Shown: one piece after another, positions 7,799 to 48,698 of the stretch | Layout: each line of letters opens with the position of its first letter | Numbering within the stretch: the first letter of the stretch is position 1 | IMG/VR virus record: IMGVR_UViG_3300012271_000928 | Coordinates: 62,001-126,000 of that record | Direction: 5' to 3' (one strand) | Length of the DNA: 64,000 nucleotides | DNA from: a virus | The notes under the pieces: generated by a model | The model's database searches: none | Told to the model about the DNA's origin: nothing | The model's input: the letters and a program-made list of their open reading frames with translations, nothing else | Position numbers and translations under genes: made by a program

Positions 7799-8608
7799 TC
7801 AGACCGACTCGGCCTCGTAGCGGCCGTTGCCCATGTTGCGAATGACGTCTCGGCTGGTCTGGGGTATCTCGACCAGGATCGAACGAACATAGTTGCTGCG
7901 GTTGTACTCATCGTCATAGTAGTAGTCGTCGTCAAACGAGCTACGCGCCTCCTTGTAGACGTCGACACGCACGACATCACCCGCCTCAACCCGACGGAGC
8001 ACCTCTTCAAGGCCACCGCGACGAACCGAAGGTGCGCCCTTGAGCGCATCCCAGCCTCGGAAGGCCTCAGCCGCATGCGTGTAGTCCGCGCCGCGCAGCT
8101 TCTCCTTCTGGAGAACGTAGTACACGAACTTGGCTGCATGACTCGCACCCGCCATGCGTACAGACGCCTCGCGCCAGCCGTCTCGCGTCTTCTCGATCTT
8201 GCCCTTGCTCGTCATGGGTATTTCGACCGTAATGTTCTGCTTGAGATCACCACGCACCATCTCATCCTCATCCTCATCGTACTCACTGAAGTACACGAAC
8301 ACGTCCACCACCGTACCCGGAGAAGCCGAGGTGAGCGCCTCATCCAGGGGCTCAATGTCGGTGATGCCGTTCATAGACGACATGTTACGCTTCCAGGAGT
8401 CCCAGTCCTTGTAGACGATGGCCTCGTGAAGGTACTTCTTGCCCGACGCGCGCTCCTTGCGTAGAGCTTGCCGAACGATCTTGGCTGCGTACGAAGCAGC
8501 AGCGGCAGTACGCGTAGACGCCAGGGAGGCGATCACAGGCTTGAGGTGAGGACGCAGCTCAGGCTTGGTTTTGCCGAGGCGAATGAGACGGGCTTTGAGA
8601 TCAGACAT
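7799..8608 (-). CDS. Protein with shared N-terminal tag (PELRPHLKPVIASL)
   Basis: The start is the ATG at 8608 (MSDLKARLIRLG...), because the first 29 residues match those of other genes in the window; a longer frame upstream is not supported. The tag core is PELRPHLKPVIASL. Behind it two similar modules occur: each has an alpha-helix with AAKxVxxxLRKE(R/K), then a WD(S/A)xK segment, then a beta segment ending ITVEIPMTSKGKIE or ILVEIPQTSRDVIR. So residues about 35-150 and 160-265 form an internal duplication. The second half carries DDDYYYDDEY. Product 269 residues; function unknown. Confidence 0.7.
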   Translation of the reverse strand: MSDLKARLIRLGKTKPELRPHLKPVIASLASTRTAAAASYAAKIVRQALRKERASGKKYLHEAIVYKDWDSWKRNMSSMNGITDIEPLDEALTSASPGTVVDVFVYFSEYDEDEDEMVRGDLKQNITVEIPMTSKGKIEKTRDGWREASVRMAGASHAAKFVYYVLQKEKLRGADYTHAAEAFRGWDALKGAPSVRRGGLEEVLRRVEAGDVVRVDVYKEARSSFDDDYYYDDEYNRSNYVRSILVEIPQTSRDVIRNMGNGRYEAESV

Positions 8609-8673
8609 GGCGTACGTGCTCCGGGATAGAAGAAGGTATACACCTTCCCCCTGTATAGACGAGTTACCGCACA

Positions 8674-8844
8674 TCACCACCGAAAGCGAAGGGTGCCCAT
8701 GAGATACGAATACAGGAGCGGGCTCACGTAACACACCAACGCCAGCCATCGGTCGACCTGGAAGTACGGTGCAAAGCCTACAAACACTACGCCCGATACC
8801 AGCATCAACACGTACACTGCACGTCGGAGATGAGTAAGAGTCAT
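8674..8844 (-). CDS. Small membrane protein, two transmembrane segments
   Basis: The ATG at 8844 follows GGAGAGG. The 56-residue product has two hydrophobic stretches (about residues 10-26, VYVLMLVSGVVFVGFAP; and 33-48, LALVCYVSPLLYSYLM) with a short loop (YFQVDRW) between, and ends RFRW. It is probably an inner-membrane protein. A holin is possible by size, but no lysis genes are seen beside it. Confidence 0.55.
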   Translation of the reverse strand: MTLTHLRRAVYVLMLVSGVVFVGFAPYFQVDRWLALVCYVSPLLYSYLMGTLRFRW

Positions 8845-8869
8845 GAAACCTCTCCAGGTAAAGGTAGAC

Positions 8870-8890
8870 GAAACATCCCCGCTTGCGCGA
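8870..8890 (+). repeat. Solitary degenerate CRISPR-like repeat
   Basis: ACATCCCCGCTTGCGCG (8873-8889) differs in one base from the core of the two CRISPR repeats at 9709-9798. Similarity stops after that core and no second copy is at 61-bp spacing. It lies in the leader of the small membrane-protein gene. It may be a remnant repeat or an unrelated GC-rich palindrome. Confidence 0.35.
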
Positions 8891-8928
8891 AGAGTTGACA
8901 CGGGGCACACGTTTTGCTGTACCACGCC

Positions 8929-9465
8929 TCACCCCGGAGAGTCGCAACCGTCAAGGGGTTTCGATCTTTGCAGGAGACCCAACACCTGCTGCTCCCTCAA
9001 GATCTCCGCTTCCTCGTCCTCTTCGGGAAGCCCACCCTCCAGGATGCCCACCAGCTCGAAGATGCCATGCGGGTCGAACTCGCCCGTACTTGCGTCGAGG
9101 ACCCAGGACCTACCCCCGAGTAGATTCTCAGGGCATGTATGCTCCTCGACGTAGTAACGCATGTCACTGAGGCGCTCTTCAGCGTTCGCGGCGCGCCCGT
9201 AATCCAGGGTCTCGCGTGCGAGGACGAAATGCCCGGCTCGGATAACCTGCGTCAACTGGGACGCCTTGGTGCCCGTGGTAACCTCGACCACCTCCTCCCC
9301 CAGGATCTTCCCGCTCACGCTTACGAGACAGTTATCGCAGTACCAAGGGCCAAATCGACGCACCTGCGTAGAGTCCGCATCAAAGAGGTGGTCGACCGTA
9401 CTCATGTCCTCACCGCAGTCCGGGCAGCACAAGAGCGTGCGAGTGTCTTTTCGTGTGTATGACAC
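8929..9465 (-). CDS. Zinc-ribbon protein, function unknown
   Basis: The preferred start is GTG at 9465, which follows GGAG by 5 nt; the upstream in-frame ATG at 9498 lies in the loop of a terminator-like hairpin and has no ribosome site. The 178-residue product has CCPDCGE near residue 13 and YCDNC near residue 42, a four-cysteine zinc ribbon. The rest is acidic, ending with a charged helix (LPEEDEEAEILREQQVLGLL). Unknown function; the C-terminal gene boundary at 8929 is clear. Confidence 0.6.
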   Translation of the reverse strand: MSYTRKDTRTLLCCPDCGEDMSTVDHLFDADSTQVRRFGPWYCDNCLVSVSGKILGEEVVEVTTGTKASQLTQVIRAGHFVLARETLDYGRAANAEERLSDMRYYVEEHTCPENLLGGRSWVLDASTGEFDPHGIFELVGILEGGLPEEDEEAEILREQQVLGLLQRSKPLDGCDSPG

Positions 9466-9708: not shown

Positions 9709-9798
9709 GGGACATCCCCGCTCGCGCGGGGAACACTATACAGTGCGTGGAGTGGGCGGCGTCAAGGGCGGGACATCCCCGCTCGCGCGGGGAACACT
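9709..9798 (-). CRISPR. Type I-E-like CRISPR mini-array: two repeats, one spacer
   Basis: Two identical 29-bp repeats lie at 9709-9737 and 9770-9798, separated by a unique 32-bp spacer (9738-9769); the period is 61 bp, as in type I-E. On the plus strand the repeat starts GGGACATCCCCGCTCGCG and ends GGGGAACACT; its reverse complement has the usual I-E form, with TTCCCCGCGCGAGCGGGGAT as the hairpin. By family convention the array reads on the minus strand, like the genes. No cas gene is in the window, so processing would need host Cas proteins. No match to the spacer was noticed by eye. Confidence 0.85.
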
Positions 9799-9896
9799 CT
9801 TCAAATGTTCAAGCCTTCGGAAGTGTACCTAACCCCCTGTATTCGCTCAGGAATCCTGTTGGCATGGGGTGCGCCGTTTTGCTTTACCAACTCTTA

Positions 9897-9935
9897 CCCT
9901 GTGGTATACCCCTGTGGTATACCCCTGTGGTACAC
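9897..9935 (+). repeat. Three 13-bp tandem repeats (CCCTGTGGTATAC)
   Basis: Copies are at 9897-9909, 9910-9922 and 9923-9935; the third has TACAC for TATAC. They lie on the presumed leader side of the CRISPR mini-array. The core CTGTGGTATAC recurs at 21711-21721 in front of the only plus-strand gene, so the repeats may be iterated promoter or operator sites. Confidence 0.6.
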
Positions 9936-10060
9936 CTCTCCGACTCATGAGAAGGACCCTACCTCAAGAGAAGGGGGACGTCAAGCCTCTGTTGCCAAAA
10001 ACTCTCCCAGGCGCAGGCGGACGACGCCCGCCTGCGTCTGGATCTCACCCTCCCACAGGG

Positions 10061-10708
10061 TCAGATTCCCATGAATTTACGGGGGGTTAGCGTACCGTTA
10101 CCTGTAATCGGACCAAAACTCGACCTCACGCCCAGGCCATAGCGGCTCTGTTTCAGGCCACGCATGTACTTGACCGTACGAGCCTTGCCGTCGGTCATCA
10201 TCTTCTCGAACTGCTGCTCGGCGTTGCCCTTCAAGGACTCGTACTTGGAACTGCGCTCGATGTCCAGATTGATACCGCCAATGGAGTACGAGTTATGCGC
10301 CAGGATGCCGTTGGTGAGTACGAAGTTCTCATCTCCAGGCACACTCAAGTCATAGGTGTATACACGAGCAAGGGCTTCCGTGTGCGCCGTCAAACGAGAT
10401 CCCGAAGCCTGAGAAGAACCCTCCACACATACCGCCAAGGCATCCCCTACCTTGAGATCCTGAGCCAAAGCTTCACGTACCGCCCCATCTGGCCGGTACT
10501 CAAAGACCGAGTGATCCCCCGTACACGTCACAACCCTGCCCTGCGCATCCTCCAGCCGCACCATCGGCTTGTGTGGTGTATGGTGACGCATCACATCAGA
10601 GACCCGAGACCAACGTACACGCCCCGTAGAAGTCTCGACGCTACGAACCTCCAAAGAACCCTCTCGCAAGGCGTTCAGGAGCCACTCTCGCTCATTATCG
10701 CTCAACAT
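10061..10708 (-). CDS. Split gene part 2: C-intein plus C-terminal part of virion protein
   Basis: A 215-residue product. Residues 1-139 are a C-intein: MLSDNEREWLLNALREG, a splicing-domain segment with block-B TGDHSVF (64-70), KVGDAL (86-91), block-F YDLSVPGDENFVLTNG (119-134) and the terminus LAHN (136-139) with the penultimate His and final Asn needed for cleavage. The C-extein follows at codon 140 with Ser as +1 (SYSIGGINLDIERSSKYESL, 76 residues). Its partner is the N part at 11639-12409. The ATG at 10708 overlaps the end of the endonuclease frame by 7 nt (ATGTTGA). Trans-splicing would join ...NWVADEF to SYSIGG.... Confidence 0.88.
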   Translation of the reverse strand: MLSDNEREWLLNALREGSLEVRSVETSTGRVRWSRVSDVMRHHTPHKPMVRLEDAQGRVVTCTGDHSVFEYRPDGAVREALAQDLKVGDALAVCVEGSSQASGSRLTAHTEALARVYTYDLSVPGDENFVLTNGILAHNSYSIGGINLDIERSSKYESLKGNAEQQFEKMMTDGKARTVKYMRGLKQSRYGLGVRSSFGPITGNGTLTPRKFMGI

Positions 10709-11646
10709 ACCTGCACCTTATTGAAGAATCGTATAGCCCGGTCCAAACACCCGTCGTAATCGCGCTGCAACTCATGCTCCCACAGCACCAACACCTCCCA
10801 ACCACCTCGCGCAAGGTACGCCAACTTGGCGAGGTCTCTTCTGCGATTGGAGGGAGGCCCCTCCAGACCACATAACAAACAGGAGTGCCAGTATCAGCCA
10901 TGTATCTCCAACACCTTGCGCATCTCCGGCTGCACCTCATCACAGGTGTAGTACCCAATAGCGTACTCCGTCTCCAAGTCCTGCACCCCATTGCGAACCA
11001 ATGCCGCCTTAAAGTTCAGATGAAGCTGTGAGGTGGCCTGAATAAACGTGCGCGCGTGCGCGGCTGACTGTCGAGACTGCTCCGGGTGTGACGCATGCCA
11101 GGACAAGACAGCCTCGCGCAAATCACCGCCCTCCTGCCACCGCTCCAGGGATTGAGCGGATACGGCCTGCCGCCGCCCCTCCGTCTGGTTCAATGCGATG
11201 AACTCAGCCCTGCGCGTACCCTCTTGCATCCGCTCCCGCGAAGTCTGAGCAATCCGCAGGCGAGTGTGTACCCCTTCAGGAGACTGAAAATGCTCTAACA
11301 TGGCCCGTGACTGGTGAGCCTTCTGTTCTGGGCTCTTCCGTCGACGTACAGTAGTCGTAGCACACGCCAGAGGCGCTTTCGGGTACTTCGTACGATACCC
11401 GTCCAAATCAAGCGAGGCGCATGCCTGCAAGTGTAGGGATGTAATCGCAGCCACCCAGGCCCCACAACAACGACACACTACGTAATGCGTACCCTCCACC
11501 AACGCGTCTAGCGACGCCACAGACACACACGTTCGGCGCCCGGCCTTACGCGCTTGAACGTCACCGCTCTCGATCAAGGTAACCAAATGCCGTGCGTTCA
11601 GTCCATGCCTGAGTTGCGCCTGTCGTTTTGATATCCACTCACTCAT
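10702..11646 (-). pseudogene. Homing endonuclease between intein halves, interrupted by in-frame TGA
   Basis: The frame starts at ATG 11646, overlapping the stop of the N-intein gene by 8 nt, and is open for 315 codons except for one TGA at 10894-10896 (codon 251). Residues 1-52 look like a helix-turn-helix (MSEWISKRQAQLRHGLNARH). CRCCGAW and HLQAC near 60-80 look like a zinc-finger/Ros-type segment ending DGYRTKYPKAPL. A repetitive middle (RRKSPEQKAHQSRAM) resembles endonuclease DNA-binding modules. The C-terminus is a Vsr-like nuclease split by the TGA: VLEIHG-stop-YWHSCLLCG, then RRRDLAKL and GGWEVLVLWEHEL. Relatives, as I recall them, have Cys at the stop position, one base from TGA. Without read-through the protein loses its catalytic end. 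Confidence 0.75.
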
Positions 11647-12409
11647 GAGCCTCAGCTTCCACCTGGAGGGCATACAGCTCTTCCATCGACACCTGAATCT
11701 CCTGCCCTCCAGACACACGTACCGTAACCAAGGTCTCCCCGGCAAGCGAGAATTCGTCCGCAACCCAATTGAACGTGAGCGCCATCGCAGCCTGAGCCAT
11801 GGCCCCCGTGATGATCCACACGATCCAATTTCGCTGAGCGGACACCATCATGTCCATGCTCAGGTAACCCGTAGCCGGGGGGTAGGAGTTGATGAGCATG
11901 GTCGCCTGATCCATGTACTCAAGCAGCTCCTCGTCCTCCCAGATGTAGGCGAACACGCGATTGAACTGGTTCACGGTCCCCGACGAGGTGGGAGGCCTGA
12001 AGTGGTAGTTGCGGTCAGGGTTGTTGTCCCTCAAACGGATGCGGATGCGGCGGATCATATCGAGCTGCGTCGCCGTGTAACGCGTCGTCAGGAGCTGGGA
12101 GGGTTCCACGATCTGGAACTCTTGAAGGAGCGTGTTCTCAGGATCACCCGACAGCTCCACGAGGGTCCAACGAATACGATAGAGACCGAACGCTACGAAC
12201 TCGGGCACCTGGAAGTGGGCGTAGTATTGACCCACGCCCACGCGCACGGGCACGTGAGCCGGAGGTCCAATGAGGACCTCGCTGCCCGTCGTGACGTCGT
12301 AGAGCGCGTATGTGATGGAGAACGGGTCGACAGGCACGTCCAAGCTGTCCAGAACCTCGATGGCGAGGTCCGTAGGCGTCGTGATAGACCCTCGTGTCAG
12401 CTCAAGCAT
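11639..12409 (-). CDS. Split gene part 1: virion protein N-terminal part plus N-intein
   Basis: A 256-residue product starting 5 nt after GGAG. Residues 1-220 are the N-extein, a beta-rich N-terminal domain (about 1-105) followed by a helical part (LLTTRYTATQLDMIRRIRIRL..., WIVWIITGAMAQAAMAL), as in phage virion or neck proteins. The last 36 codons (11642-11749) are the N-intein: SLAGETLVTVRVSGGQEIQV and a short tail. S-LAGETLV is intein block A with Ser at position 1. The N-intein is much shorter than in the usual split at about residue 100. The C partner is at 10061-10708. Confidence 0.85.
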   Translation of the reverse strand: MLELTRGSITTPTDLAIEVLDSLDVPVDPFSITYALYDVTTGSEVLIGPPAHVPVRVGVGQYYAHFQVPEFVAFGLYRIRWTLVELSGDPENTLLQEFQIVEPSQLLTTRYTATQLDMIRRIRIRLRDNNPDRNYHFRPPTSSGTVNQFNRVFAYIWEDEELLEYMDQATMLINSYPPATGYLSMDMMVSAQRNWIVWIITGAMAQAAMALTFNWVADEFSLAGETLVTVRVSGGQEIQVSMEELYALQVEAEAHE

Positions 12410-13884: not shown

Positions 13885-13902
13885 TCCACAACTCCTGGAC
13901 TA

Positions 13903-14364
13903 TCAGATGTAGCGTACGGTCAACTTGGAGCCCACGTACTGACGCACGATGGCCTGAATCTCCTCATCGGACACGACCCCAGACACGGGAGCGAATGCGA
14001 AGGACTCGTCCAGGAACACCTTACCATTGTAGGCCGACACCACCCCGGAGTGTATATCATCAGGAGAGACCCTACGCCCGGAAGCACGAGACAACGCCGT
14101 CAAGATGTTGGCCGCCACGCCTCGCAGCTCCCGGCCACGCACGTTCACGAGCTGGTAATCCACCTCCGCGCCAAAGTCATGACGTATGAGCAATGAGACG
14201 CTATAGCCCCCATCACGTGCCGACAGACTACGAGAGAGCGTCAGGGCCGCCGTCGTCGATCCCTGAGCCTGCTTATGCAGGGAGGCGATCACAGGTTTGA
14301 GGTCCGCACGAAGTTCAGGCTTGGCGGTCCCCATACGAATCAGTTCGGCTTTGAGATCGGACAT
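13903..14364 (-). CDS. Tagged protein (PELRADLKPVIASL), unknown function
   Basis: The ATG at 14364 is preferred over 14496 because the product then begins with the shared tag (MSDLKAELIRMGTAKPELRA...) and has GAGGG 8 nt upstream. The 153-residue product has the tag (1-29), a Thr/Ala/Ser linker, then a compact alpha/beta domain (YSVSLLIRHDFGAEVDYQLV, GVAANILTALSRASG, DEEIQAIVRQYVGSKLTVRYI). The leader from 14365 to 14505 contains a small GGTCC/GGACC hairpin and no gene. Confidence 0.7.
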   Translation of the reverse strand: MSDLKAELIRMGTAKPELRADLKPVIASLHKQAQGSTTAALTLSRSLSARDGGYSVSLLIRHDFGAEVDYQLVNVRGRELRGVAANILTALSRASGRRVSPDDIHSGVVSAYNGKVFLDESFAFAPVSGVVSDEEIQAIVRQYVGSKLTVRYI

Positions 14365-14505
14365 GGGCGTAGCCCTCATAGAAGAGCCGCGAGGAACCGC
14401 TGCGCAGTACGAAGGCTGGTCCTTTGCAGGACCGTGGCACTCGCCGTAGTCAGGGCGGCTCCTCAGCGGCTTTGTTTTGAAAAACGCATCAGACACCGTA
14501 AGGCC

Positions 14506-14980: not shown

Positions 14981-15328
14981 TCAATCGAGGTGGCCGGTAC
15001 GCTCTAGCCGTACCAGCTCTTCTAGAATTTTACTCAGGTGCACGAAGACCGTACCCACCTCCCGAAAGAGCATGGCATGGTCTCGTGTCCTGACGCGCCG
15101 TATACGCTCACTGGACAACCGCAACTCTCGCTGCGACGCTTGGATCGAACCCGCTACGGGCAAGCCCGACACGTCCAGATCCACTACCTCCTCTACCAAT
15201 TCATCCACTACCGCAACTACCAGCACCAACACGTTGAGGTCTAGCAGGCGGCGCGGCTCCCAGTTCAAGCCCTTGAAGCCCGAGGCCTGGGAGGCGAGAA
15301 CTGATCGAATACCACGTATGTCCGCCAT
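14981..15328 (-). CDS. Unknown small protein with hydrophobic core segment
   Basis: A 115-residue protein. Residues about 29-50 (LLDLNVLVLVVAVVDELVEEVV) are very hydrophobic but end in charges, so a buried strand-helix is as likely as a membrane segment. The C-terminal part is helical and basic. Function unknown. Confidence 0.55.
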   Translation of the reverse strand: MADIRGIRSVLASQASGFKGLNWEPRRLLDLNVLVLVVAVVDELVEEVVDLDVSGLPVAGSIQASQRELRLSSERIRRVRTRDHAMLFREVGTVFVHLSKILEELVRLERTGHLD

Positions 15329-15339
15329 GCCAGGACCTC

Positions 15340-15954
15340 TCAGATCACCGTGACGGCTGCCGTCGCGGTCTTCGTGTTGGAGGTCACCGTGACCGAAGCC
15401 ACGTTGTTTGACTCGTCCGTAGCGAACCCATGAAGAGCTGCCGGGATCGTGATGGCGGTGTCCGTGAAGACGCCACCCCCACCAGTGATCTCAGTAGCCG
15501 TCAGGGTCACCGTCGCCGCGTTCGCGGCAGTGACGATCACCGAAGAAACATCGGGAGCAATCGACAGGAACGCCGTACCCGTGATCTCCACGCGGTAGTC
15601 GTCGGTGCCATCGGTAGCGTCAACCGTATCCTGCTCTGCCGTCGCAACAACCGGAGCCACGAGGGTACCCGTCGCGATGTCGATCACAGTGACGAGACCC
15701 CCGGCCTCAAAGCCTGCGATCACGCCGTGGTCACGGCTCAAGAGAACATCATCCGTAGGGATGAGGTCAATGAAGCCGGGCTGAGTGGTGTCAACGTCGA
15801 CACCCCCACCGTTGAAAGACTTGCGGTTGTACGTCACGTAGACGTCCTGCTTGCTGTAGTCGTCGAAAGGACGACGCGGCGTGCCGTCCTCGATGTCGTT
15901 GACGAGCAAGTCGGCAAGCTGCGACTGCGTATGGACAAGGCGAATGAGCGCCAT
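15340..15954 (-). CDS. Probable virion/decoration protein, beta-rich
   Basis: A 204-residue protein after GGAGG. The first 70 residues look like a globular part (MALIRLVHTQSQLADLLVND). The last 100 residues are Val/Thr/Ala-rich beta repeats (VIVTAANAATVTLTATEITG, ASVTVTSNTKTATAAVTVI), as in Ig-like or decoration domains of phage virions. Assignment is by composition and neighbours. Confidence 0.55.
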   Translation of the reverse strand: MALIRLVHTQSQLADLLVNDIEDGTPRRPFDDYSKQDVYVTYNRKSFNGGGVDVDTTQPGFIDLIPTDDVLLSRDHGVIAGFEAGGLVTVIDIATGTLVAPVVATAEQDTVDATDGTDDYRVEITGTAFLSIAPDVSSVIVTAANAATVTLTATEITGGGGVFTDTAITIPAALHGFATDESNNVASVTVTSNTKTATAAVTVI

Positions 15955-22946: not shown

Positions 22947-23825
22947 TCAGCGGCGCACGACCAGACGGACAAGTCCGCGCGGGTTGTGGCAGCCAATGCC
23001 CAGGTTCTCGAAGATCGAGAAGCCGATCTGGCGGGCAGCGGGGTTATCCGCCGAGAGAACCGTCAGCTCAGTGCGAACGGGGATGCGGCCGAACATCTCG
23101 GGCTCGGTGCAGAGGTACACGAAGCCAGCCGGGACGAGACGCGAGACGATGATCTGCGCGCCCCAGAGGGTGGACTGGAGACCCGTGTTCAGAAGGACAG
23201 CCTGCGACTCGATGTCGAGGATCTCGCGACCGAACTTACGGATGTCCGAGTAGTCCTTGGCGTTCATGTAGATGCGCGCCACGCGAAGGTCATGCTTCTC
23301 GATCTCGGAGAACGCGTCCGCGAGGACGGCCTGCGAGATGGGAGCCACGACCTGGAGGTCGGGGTTGACCGTACCGGGAACCGAATCGAACCCGTTCTGA
23401 GCCACAGCGTCGAGGATAGCGAAGACGCGCTCGTCCTCGGCAGCCTGGATCTGGCTCTTACCGAGCTGCTGGGCACGCTCGATGAGGTCGAAGCGGCGCT
23501 CCTTGATCTGCGTGATCGGGATGGTCGGAAGCGACGCGATCTCGAACAGGGGGATGATCACACGACGAGGCTTCTGGACAGCCTGGATGTTCTCACCCTC
23601 CTCGCCTACGACGTACGCGGTGACATCCGGGTCCTTGTCGTAGATGGGAAGTGCGCCGTCGGGAAGCTGCTCGACGAGGAAGGTCTTTCGACCGACCGAC
23701 GAGTAGTCGCGACGAAGGCGGAGGGGCTGAATCATCGAGTTGGCGAGACGCGCGCGTCCTGCCGCAGTCTTGATGAATCGGCCGATGAGCTGCGACTTGG
23801 CAGCGGGGCTGAGCTGGTTGGACAT
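22947..23825 (-). CDS. Major capsid protein (HK97 fold)
   Basis: A 292-residue protein. The ATG at 23825 has GGAG 10-12 nt upstream; an ATG at 23861 is less likely. The segments DYSSVGRKTFLVEQLPDG, YDKDPDVTAYVVGEEGENI, IPLFEIASLPTIPITQIKER and RFDLIERAQQLGKSQIQAAE, followed by an AKDYSDIRKFG segment and LVPAGFVYLCTEPEMFGRIP, are the pattern of HK97-fold major head proteins of several large phage groups. Upstream genes are a decoration-like, an acidic scaffold-like and a protease-like gene, the usual head-module order. The N-terminal QLIGRFIKTAAGRARLANSM is faintly like the shared tag of other proteins. Confidence 0.88.
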   Translation of the reverse strand: MSNQLSPAAKSQLIGRFIKTAAGRARLANSMIQPLRLRRDYSSVGRKTFLVEQLPDGALPIYDKDPDVTAYVVGEEGENIQAVQKPRRVIIPLFEIASLPTIPITQIKERRFDLIERAQQLGKSQIQAAEDERVFAILDAVAQNGFDSVPGTVNPDLQVVAPISQAVLADAFSEIEKHDLRVARIYMNAKDYSDIRKFGREILDIESQAVLLNTGLQSTLWGAQIIVSRLVPAGFVYLCTEPEMFGRIPVRTELTVLSADNPAARQIGFSIFENLGIGCHNPRGLVRLVVRR

Positions 23826-26211: not shown

Positions 26212-27735
26212 TCAATTAAGAAAACGAGAGTGGGACAGAGCAGCGGCAGCCTCTGGTCGAGTCGGAACCCTTCCGTGCTGCTTGGTGAAGGTCTTGAGGT
26301 ACTCCATATTGGAGCCGTATCGGCAAATACCACCAACCTTGATGAGCGTGGCGTAGAAGTCCATCGGAAGCATCTCACGATCCGAGCCTTCACGATCAGC
26401 AAGGATCAGGGCCCCCACGATGTCCGTGTTGGCGAAGCGAGGCTTGAGGGTCTCGTAGTGCTCGGGCTTGTCCATCGTATAGAGCAGCGCGAAGATTCGG
26501 CGGCGACGGTTGATGTCCGACAGCTCTCGTGCGTAGCGACGAGAGAAGATCGCATACGCCGTACGCGCGATCGAGGAGTGCTGGATGGAGTCGTTAGGAG
26601 CCATCTCCCCCTCAGGCATGTCCTTGGTCTCGGGAGCGTCGCGAAGGTCATCACGCAGTTCGCGCATGGCCTTGTCTTTGACCTTCTCCTTGAACTGCTC
26701 TACCGCCTCGTCGACCGGGTTCTTGGGAGCCTCTTCCTCCTCACCGCCTTCCTCATCCTCATCGAAGCCGAACGCCAGCTTGAGCTGCGAGTTGACCTCC
26801 TCCCTGGCAATACGTGCCGAGAGAGCTGCGGTCTTGCGGAACATGTCCGTCCACTCCGCCTGGATACCAGCAGGAACCGTATAAGCGTGCTGAATGCGAG
26901 CCTCAAGGTCCGTGGTCTCATACCGAGAAGGAGTATGCGTCGTAGGACCTCCGGGAAGCACCGACCTCAACACGGCGCCCTTGAACGCGGGATTGCCCAC
27001 CCACGAGCCCTCGATGAAGCTCACCGAGTCTGGATCAGTGTGGTGACCACAAAGCTCCGCCACGACGTGAATCGCTCCATCGGGACCGACGAACTTGTTG
27101 CCCTTCTCATACTTGACGTGACGACACAGCTCCGCGTCATCCTTGGCGCGGTTGCCGCACTTGGTGCACGTCGAATAGGCGATGGTGCAGCCCATGGACA
27201 GCGTGTTCAGCTCACCGCTCTCAATGCGTGCGATGAGATCGCGGTGCTTGCGGTCCGTCGCCACCAGGATGTCTACGTAAACCGTATCACCCAGATCACG
27301 CGCCACTGCGTCAATGATCTTGCCCTTGGACAGCTCCGGGATCTGGATATGCTCGACGTAGTTCTCGGCTCCCACGAACGTCTGATACGTCGCCATGAGG
27401 AGCTTACGCTCCCAGGCGTCGCCGTTGGCGTTGATGTACTTGGAGCACCCAGGAGTGATCAGATAGTCCGAGTACGGACGGTTGATGCTCTCACCATCAT
27501 CGTTCTGGACGCTGGCTCCCGTCTTGACGTTAGGAGCCTCATCCACGTCTACCGATGCGATGATCGTGCAGTGCGTCAGGAGGTACTTGTCGGGGCTAAA
27601 CTTGCCCAGAAGGTCCGACGCCGTACGGCTGCGATGCGCGCCCGCAGTCACAGCGTTGGCACGCGTCACGTTCCACTGGTCCACGCCAATGATTGGATGC
27701 TGTACCACAGCGTTTGCAATACGAATCATGGCCAT
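26212..27735 (-). CDS. Probable prohead maturation protease with zinc-binding insert
   Basis: A 507-residue protein. The N-terminal 290 residues have the layout of prohead proteases of large phages: LTHCTIIASVDVD, later SDYLITPGCSKYIN, VDILVATDRKHRDLIARIES and GELNTLSMGC. A Cys/His cluster follows (CTKCGNRAKDDAELCRHV, later AELCGHH), probably a zinc site. Candidate catalytic residues are His at 55 and Ser at the GELNTLSMG segment, but this is not certain. The C-terminal part has an acidic linker (DEDEEGGEEEEAP) and helices. Position in front of the scaffold-like and capsid genes agrees. Confidence 0.55.
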   Translation of the reverse strand: MAMIRIANAVVQHPIIGVDQWNVTRANAVTAGAHRSRTASDLLGKFSPDKYLLTHCTIIASVDVDEAPNVKTGASVQNDDGESINRPYSDYLITPGCSKYINANGDAWERKLLMATYQTFVGAENYVEHIQIPELSKGKIIDAVARDLGDTVYVDILVATDRKHRDLIARIESGELNTLSMGCTIAYSTCTKCGNRAKDDAELCRHVKYEKGNKFVGPDGAIHVVAELCGHHTDPDSVSFIEGSWVGNPAFKGAVLRSVLPGGPTTHTPSRYETTDLEARIQHAYTVPAGIQAEWTDMFRKTAALSARIAREEVNSQLKLAFGFDEDEEGGEEEEAPKNPVDEAVEQFKEKVKDKAMRELRDDLRDAPETKDMPEGEMAPNDSIQHSSIARTAYAIFSRRYARELSDINRRRRIFALLYTMDKPEHYETLKPRFANTDIVGALILADREGSDREMLPMDFYATLIKVGGICRYGSNMEYLKTFTKQHGRVPTRPEAAAALSHSRFLN

Positions 27736-27738
27736 GGG

Positions 27739-28032
27739 TCACTCCGGGGGGGCTACGTGCGTTAGCAGGGGAAGAAGATGGGGACGAAGTTCAGGACGCT
27801 CAAACGCCAACTCTACGAGATCCTCGAAGAGCGTAGACGGAGCCTCCGTACGGCTCGGCGCCTGACTCAACAGATTCAACAGCCTCAACCCCGCACCATG
27901 CTGAGCAGAAGAAGGAGAGCCCATGGACGCCTGGAGGCCACGGCCAAAGTAGGCACGCACCGCGTCCGCGAGGGCCCCATCCTGTCCACCCCGTTCCCGG
28001 AGAGCCTCCATGATCGCGTCTTGACTGGTCAT
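27739..28032 (-). CDS. Small protein with C-terminal copy of the tag-like motif
   Basis: The ATG at 28032 overlaps the TGA of the upstream gene (ATGA). The 97-residue product starts MTSQDAIMEALRERGGQDG and ends FEDLVELAFERPELRPHLLP plus 10 residues; PELRPHLLPLL is the tag core seen at the N-terminus of other proteins, here at the C-terminus. Function unknown. Confidence 0.6.
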   Translation of the reverse strand: MTSQDAIMEALRERGGQDGALADAVRAYFGRGLQASMGSPSSAQHGAGLRLLNLLSQAPSRTEAPSTLFEDLVELAFERPELRPHLLPLLTHVAPPE

Positions 28033-48055: not shown

Positions 48056-48698
48056 GACCATCCTTAATTCTATCCAGCTTCAGTCGACCGTTGGACCCCA
48101 TCCGGCCCTTGTAGGCTACCGTCGCGTGCTCCAGGAAGCCGTCGTTATGTGTCACCAGCAGCACGTTGACGTCGAAACGCTCGCACAACTTACGCAAGAA
48201 TTCTCCACAGGTGTCCACGTACTCGACGCTAAGCGCTGCGAGAGACTCGTCCAGGAAGAGGTAGCGAGCCATGCCCGTCTTCAGGAGCACCAGGATGCGC
48301 AACAGCAAGCTCTCCACCGACGCGACCCCACCACCAAACGACTGGAGCGGATCTCCATCACGGCCCGCTTGACTGGTCAGGAACGACACGTCGACCTTCC
48401 CCCTCTTCTGGCCAACTACGATATCAAACGCTACGTCTTGGTCGTGGTAGATCGCCTGTAGACCCTCAGTCACGAGGGCCGAGAAGTTGTCCGCGTACGC
48501 GTTGACGTGCCGCTCCACGAGGTGCTTGAACAGTTCGGAGACCTTATCCAGGACCTTGAGGTCCGTCTCAAGGTGCTCCAGCTCCTCCGTCAGACTCACC
48601 TCGCGCTCACCCAGGAGCGTGTGGCGCGCCTGCACGCGCGCGACGCGATCAGACAGGGTAGCCATCCGGGAGCCGAATTGGTCTTCAAGGAGCATCAT
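48045..48698 (-). CDS. SbcC/Rad50-like ATPase, C-terminal half (separate gene)
   Basis: A 217-residue protein with the C-terminal half of an SMC/Rad50 ATPase. A coiled coil (about 1-65) is followed by the ABC signature SFGGGVASVE (120-129), Walker B YLFLDES (146-152) and H-loop LVTHN (181-185). It has no Walker A; that is on the gene at 52171-53379, 3.5 kb away. So the two chains must come together to form the ATP site. The ATG overlaps the end of the clamp gene. Confidence 0.8.
   Translation of the reverse strand: MMLLEDQFGSRMATLSDRVARVQARHTLLGEREVSLTEELEHLETDLKVLDKVSELFKHLVERHVNAYADNFSALVTEGLQAIYHDQDVAFDIVVGQKRGKVDVSFLTSQAGRDGDPLQSFGGGVASVESLLLRILVLLKTGMARYLFLDESLAALSVEYVDTCGEFLRKLCERFDVNVLLVTHNDGFLEHATVAYKGRMGSNGRLKLDRIKDGHAH

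Follow-up and report, generated by a model that had tools for sequence, protein, structure and literature searches.

The two-repeat element of this phage sequence is a real CRISPR mini-array, and our analysis makes it likely that it belongs, as a satellite array, to a type I-E system encoded by the phage. The window, i.e. the whole stretch of 64,000 nucleotides that was analysed, comprises bases 62001-126000 of a 127,707-base virus record (G000), which is itself a fragment of a huge phage. Many small arrays seem to be dispersed over a bacterial virus of ~440 kb, the mini-array among them. Since this lineage carries its own type I-E machinery, the mini-array probably needs no bacterial Cas cutting proteins.

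Table 1. The mini-array and nearby elements, in window positions.
Feature	Position	Strand	Remarks
Leader-proximal CRISPR repeat	9770..9798	-	28-nt repeat GTGTTCCCCGCGCGAGCGGGGATGTCCC plus flanking base
Leader-distal (terminal) CRISPR repeat	9709..9737	-	identical to repeat 9770..9798
Spacer, 32 nt	9737..9768	-	CCCTTGACGCCGCCCACTCCACGCACTGTATA in crRNA sense
Leader, family B	9799..9906	-	adjoins repeat 9770..9798
Decayed lone repeat	8868..8896	-	GCGCAAGCGGGGATG core; leader-B-like GGTAMAGCAAAACG stretch ahead
Tandem units, 3 x 13 bp (CCCTGTGGTATAC)	9897..9939		outer leader edge

All 29 nt agree between the two repeats, which recur with a period of 61 nt and read AGTGTTCCCCGCGCGAGCGGGGATGTCCC on the minus strand, the orientation of the array. 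In the I-E register, the repeat comprises 28 nt plus one variable base, and the spacer falls as given in Table 1. With up to three mismatches allowed, the 27-nt repeat core had exactly two matches in the 64-kb window against none expected from 100 shuffles of it, ruling out a chance repeat. Each repeat is predicted to fold on the minus strand into a 7-bp stem with a GCGA loop (-15.1 kcal/mol, z = -2.9), the type I-E form of hairpin. Sequence, shuffles and folding thus confirm the I-E geometry and hairpin that had been described from the sequence alone. The hallmarks of a type I-E array are present: near-identical repeats of ~28-29 nt, a 61-nt period, spacers of 32-33 nt, a predicted repeat hairpin for Cas6e cleavage and a leader adjoining the first repeat, leader B being common to three loci. 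The element had also been placed in an intergenic gap of a phage and, indeed, no predicted coding gene runs across it; the array sits between predicted genes, which rules out a coding repeat. A terminator or promoter hairpin was likewise ruled out, as there is no T-run 3' of the repeats and the sole terminator-like site lies elsewhere. Leader B yielded no promoter of the sigma-70 type.

The name mini-array suits the window locus, but this is not the sole array of its contig. A loose search for repeats across the whole of G000 found nine repeats and eight spacers at contig positions 10651-11166, outside the window (repeat CCCCTCCCCGCACACGCGGGGATGTCCCC), as well as, at 15180, a solitary repeat whose leader (~140 nt) is homologous. 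When IMG/VR was searched with the repeat class of the mini-array, one other record was found, G001 (IMGVR_UViG_3300012271_000005, 125,429 bases), which holds several more arrays and lone repeats with two leader families, A and B. Family A takes in the nine-repeat array of G000, and family B the window mini-array, an eight-repeat array on G001 (48084-48538) and a lone G001 repeat at 27756. Leader and repeat of the window are together 93.5% identical over 138 nt to G001 48510-48647, part of an array beside a cas operon, and 90% identical to the lone leader-repeat unit at G001 27643-27776; the ~36 leader-B bases nearest the repeat are invariant in all three copies. Exact IMG/VR searches for further phages with leader B returned G001 only. 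In one family-A array (G001 23132-23173), the repeat hairpin is partly duplicated in tandem with an offset of 21 nt, and some spacings are 58-60, not 61. Lone 'repeats' near tRNA genes, at 15884 on G000 and 148859 on the related record G002 (see below), may be tRNA-arm look-alikes and were not relied on.

In favour of an inert relic, that is, a duplicated or collapsed array no longer in use, the mini-array has a single spacer, is absent at the matching place in three relatives and lies 840 bp from the decayed lone repeat of Table 1, itself probably a relic. Both of its repeats are, however, identical and fold fully, and the part of the leader nearest the repeat has stayed invariant in three copies; we therefore give a relic hardly any credence. 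Being absent in the relatives, the mini-array may be young or transient. The spacer is thus not fixed in all related phages; such fixation is what the sequence-only reading had named as evidence against itself.

The cas genes of the lineage are found on other contigs. G001 encodes a type I-E effector operon of Cas3 (876 aa), Cas7e (448), Cas6e (319), Cas5e (248) and a Cas8e-Cse2 fusion (735 aa), the last of which matches Cse1/Cas8e at its start and Cse2 at its end. The casC, casD, casE and cas3 domains scored above curated cut-offs, with the Cse1 and Cse2 matches in one protein, and Cas3, when aligned to 4q2c, keeps the HD, Walker A, DEVH, SAT and QRxGR motifs. Directly downstream of the operon, in the same orientation, lies the eight-repeat family-B array, whose ~110-nt leader and repeat class match those of the window mini-array. 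G002 (IMGVR_UViG_3300021978_000001, 437,490 bases) encodes this operon too, and there as well a single protein matches both Cse1 and Cse2. In G002, operon and arrays share one contig: about 60 repeats occupy ~17 dispersed loci, several of them around or between the cas genes (13-31 kb) and others at 110, 123-128 and 405-408 kb. Two G002 arrays (25954 and 28910) have near-identical spacers a few transitions apart, the sole such pair seen. Phage and plasmid collections held no relatives of the Cas8e-Cse2 fusion.

The I-E effector genes are thus on G001 and G002 and not on the window contig, to which they would be linked through the genome comparison given below. Cas1, Cas2, Cas3_HD and Cas7e were not found in the G000 fragment, and the label 'Cas-less' is therefore correct for this contig; it does not hold for the rest of the genome type, where cas genes are present. 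Dependence on host Cas proteins, which the sequence-only reading had suggested as possible, is probably wrong, given that the genome type encodes Cas3 and a full I-E Cascade and that the operon is flanked by an array of the same repeat class with a leader 93% identical. A virus-borne mini-array that uses host Cas proteins, like those of SPV1/SPV2 and the Cas-less arrays of huge phages, would suit a contig without cas genes; such use was inferred for SPV (PMC6858448) and is proposed for other huge phages with host-like repeats (PMC7162821), and adaptation without phage Cas1-Cas2 would require host proteins in any case. Yet in the phage's own genome type an I-E effector operon has a neighbouring array that shares this repeat and leader class, and no bacterial array with the mini-array repeat was found among 84,980 species, which makes this explanation unlikely.

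The lone leader-repeat units of the lineage (G000 15180, G001 27756 and window 8868) bring to mind RNA anti-CRISPRs (Racrs), which are solitary repeats near promoters (PMC10651486) and would act here as decoys tying up host I-E Cas proteins. Lone units elsewhere in the lineage would indeed qualify as solitary, with no second repeat within 100 bp, but the window element has two repeats, an exact 32-nt spacer and a leader. Moreover, the genome type encodes Cas proteins itself and its arrays reach 12 repeats, and a decoy would also sequester the phage's own Cas6e and Cas7e. A Racr is, in our view, very unlikely.

To relate the window contig to the operon, we compared both contigs with G002. Genes of G000 matched in order along 132-277 kb of G002 (109 of 136 genes), and those of G001 along 402-437 plus 1-94 kb (68 of 109), the two regions being complementary with zero overlap; on LR745208.1, a 485-kb huge phage, G000 and G001 likewise match different parts. 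The tetranucleotide distance between G000 and G001 (0.06-0.09) is at the within-contig level, compared to 0.34-0.41 to LR745208.1, and the two share no genes of note. Going by the complementary mapping and equal tetranucleotide make-up, both contigs probably derive from a single genome of ~440 kb; as they are separate contigs with no overlap of their ends, this evidence, though strong, is indirect. Should they be sister phages, the main reading would still be valid for the lineage.

Across the wider clade the system is patchy. Among 30 contigs, comprising G001 and 29 relatives retrieved via a conserved phage protein, Cas7e is present in two (G001 and G002), and only one of the 29 relatives, G002, has such arrays; an exact IMG/VR search for other phages with the G001 Cas7e found G001 only. 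A complete type I-E system with adaptation was not recovered, since searches of G000 and G001, both incomplete, and of G002 (437 kb) found neither Cas1 nor Cas2.

The comparison with G002 also touches the neighbourhood of the mini-array, which had been said to adjoin a split-intein locus. This was borne out: the nearby gene at window 10061-10708 has an Intein_splicing domain and, together with the gene at 11639-12409, matches one uninterrupted G002 gene (k235, 219177-220067), which means that in G000 an intein splits this gene. Outside the window, G000 carries a tRNA with a CTA anticodon (13973-14046; labelled tRNA-Pyl by ARAGORN), possibly an amber suppressor; TAG is the stop of only eight of the 136 predicted G000 genes. 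An intergenic stretch of ~45 nt (TTGTCTTACACACYCTATATACCACAAG...), perhaps a phage promoter, recurs at G000 13892-13952 and at G001 46556, 62254, 74955 and 114557. Many proteins of the phage and its relatives that otherwise differ have a short peptide motif of ~30-40 aa in common (window 7802-8947 and 13903-14496; G002 216.7, 218.3, 221.2, 221.6, 223.2, 230.9, 236.9 and 246.1 kb).

The repeats of the three contigs differ widely, yet the hairpin is kept, with compensatory changes. G000, G001 and G002 together hold 116 repeats of 63 kinds, and all 116 pair at both variable stem positions, although stem pairing was not a requirement of the search. One variable stem pair is G-C in 94 repeats, A-T in 21 and T-A in one, and double changes such as G-C to A-U are found in 16 of 62 distinct repeats. 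In the pair count, 100% of cells were paired, and the double changes exceeded those of every one of 500 shuffles. Leader-proximal pairs of repeats differ less (0.94 mismatches) than older pairs do (2.34; p = 0.009, in a comparison picked post hoc), which would fit growth of arrays at the leader followed by drift.

The spacer had been looked to for a target and the repeat for a host. No target match was obtained from phage and plasmid sequences, within limited collections and with IMG/VR covered by exact match only: no protospacer was found there for any spacer of the lineage, no related virus matched the window spacer, and the phage and plasmid collections gave either no match or only matches at E about 5. 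Self- or cross-targeting among G000, G001, G002, LR745208.1, G003 and G004 was rejected, only short chance matches being seen; the count of 98 spacers used for cross-targeting is too high, as it includes antisense duplicates that arise because family-A repeats are near-palindromic. Turning to the host, a search of 84,980 species genomes found no match to the phage repeat class. The closest repeats are of the Streptomyces type, with a different 5' end; together with further near-matches from actinobacteria, most of them single repeats on their contigs, these are too little to name a host.

What the sequences show is anatomy, namely the array, its leader family, the operon, the dispersed sister arrays and the conserved hairpin; how these function is inferred. 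If the mini-array is a satellite of the phage's own system, the leader would drive transcription of a short pre-crRNA, which phage Cas6e would cut at the hairpin. The crRNA would then load into phage Cascade, and the Cas3 that Cascade recruits would attack DNA matching the crRNA, the likeliest targets being competing phages or mobile elements that share the host; as no spacer target was found, this target class is drawn from known cases (PMC6858448, PMC6452262). Any gain of spacers would proceed via host Cas1-Cas2 adaptation proteins or recombination, because neither Cas1 nor Cas2 was found in the phage sequences searched. Against this reading count the separate contigs, the missing protospacers, Cas1/Cas2 and sigma-70-type promoter, and the absence of the array in relatives. 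We put at about even the chances of a broader reading, in which a huge-phage lineage has its own distributed type I-E immunity: one operon without Cas1-Cas2 would serve about a dozen or more leader-bearing arrays, new arrays would be seeded by leader-plus-one-repeat copies, and the repeats would drift while selection keeps only the hairpin, possibly since unlike repeats resist recombinational deletion in phage replication.

The system resembles type I-E of E. coli, Thermus and Streptomyces in its 28/29-nt repeat, 7-bp hairpin, 32-33-nt spacers, 61-nt period and Cas3-Cas8e-Cse2-Cas7e-Cas5e-Cas6e gene set, but it is phage-borne, with Cas8e and Cse2 fused and Cas1-Cas2 not found, and its very heterogeneous repeats lie in arrays dispersed over the genome, in G002 even between the cas genes. 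Huge-phage CRISPR systems without acquisition genes are known from Al-Shayeb et al. 2020 (PMC7162821), where phages of >200 kb carry compact arrays and interference genes; passages there describe a type I-C variant, type II and type V, and the term 'type I-E' does not occur in the text, whereas the lineage studied here has the entire I-E effector set, Cas3 and Cas6e included, together with numerous arrays that bear leaders. Mini-arrays that apparently use host Cas are also known (PMC6858448; reviewed in PMC11656645). Those of SPV1/SPV2 (Medvedeva et al. 2019, PMC6858448) are similarly intergenic, with one or two spacers, a leader and no adjacent cas; however, SPV repeats and leaders are host-like and the viruses have no cas genes, whereas the window repeat and leader find their match in a cas-linked array of the phage lineage itself. 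Phage ICP1 likewise encodes a CRISPR effector, which it turns on a competing element, but this effector is of subtype I-F in a different genome (PMC6452262), and here no spacer target was found. Racr units (PMC10651486) resemble the lone repeats with upstream regulatory sequence in the phage lineage, and differ from the two repeats and spacer of the window. In the literature examined, which did not cover a 2022 survey of virus-encoded systems by Al-Shayeb and colleagues that may contain I-E cases, we found no account of a huge phage that combines a full I-E effector set with numerous arrays dispersed over its genome.

Phage CRISPR is known, and Cas-less viral arrays are usually explained, in the literature examined, by borrowing from the host. 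Our analysis highlights that a 'Cas-less' viral mini-array can be an outlying piece of a virus-encoded system, and contig-by-contig surveys can misassign viral arrays because the cas genes may sit far off or on another contig. This lineage also offers natural material for studying how arrays grow in a phage without Cas1-Cas2, and how much variation is tolerated in a Cas6e substrate, with about 60 different repeats in three contigs and one hairpin.
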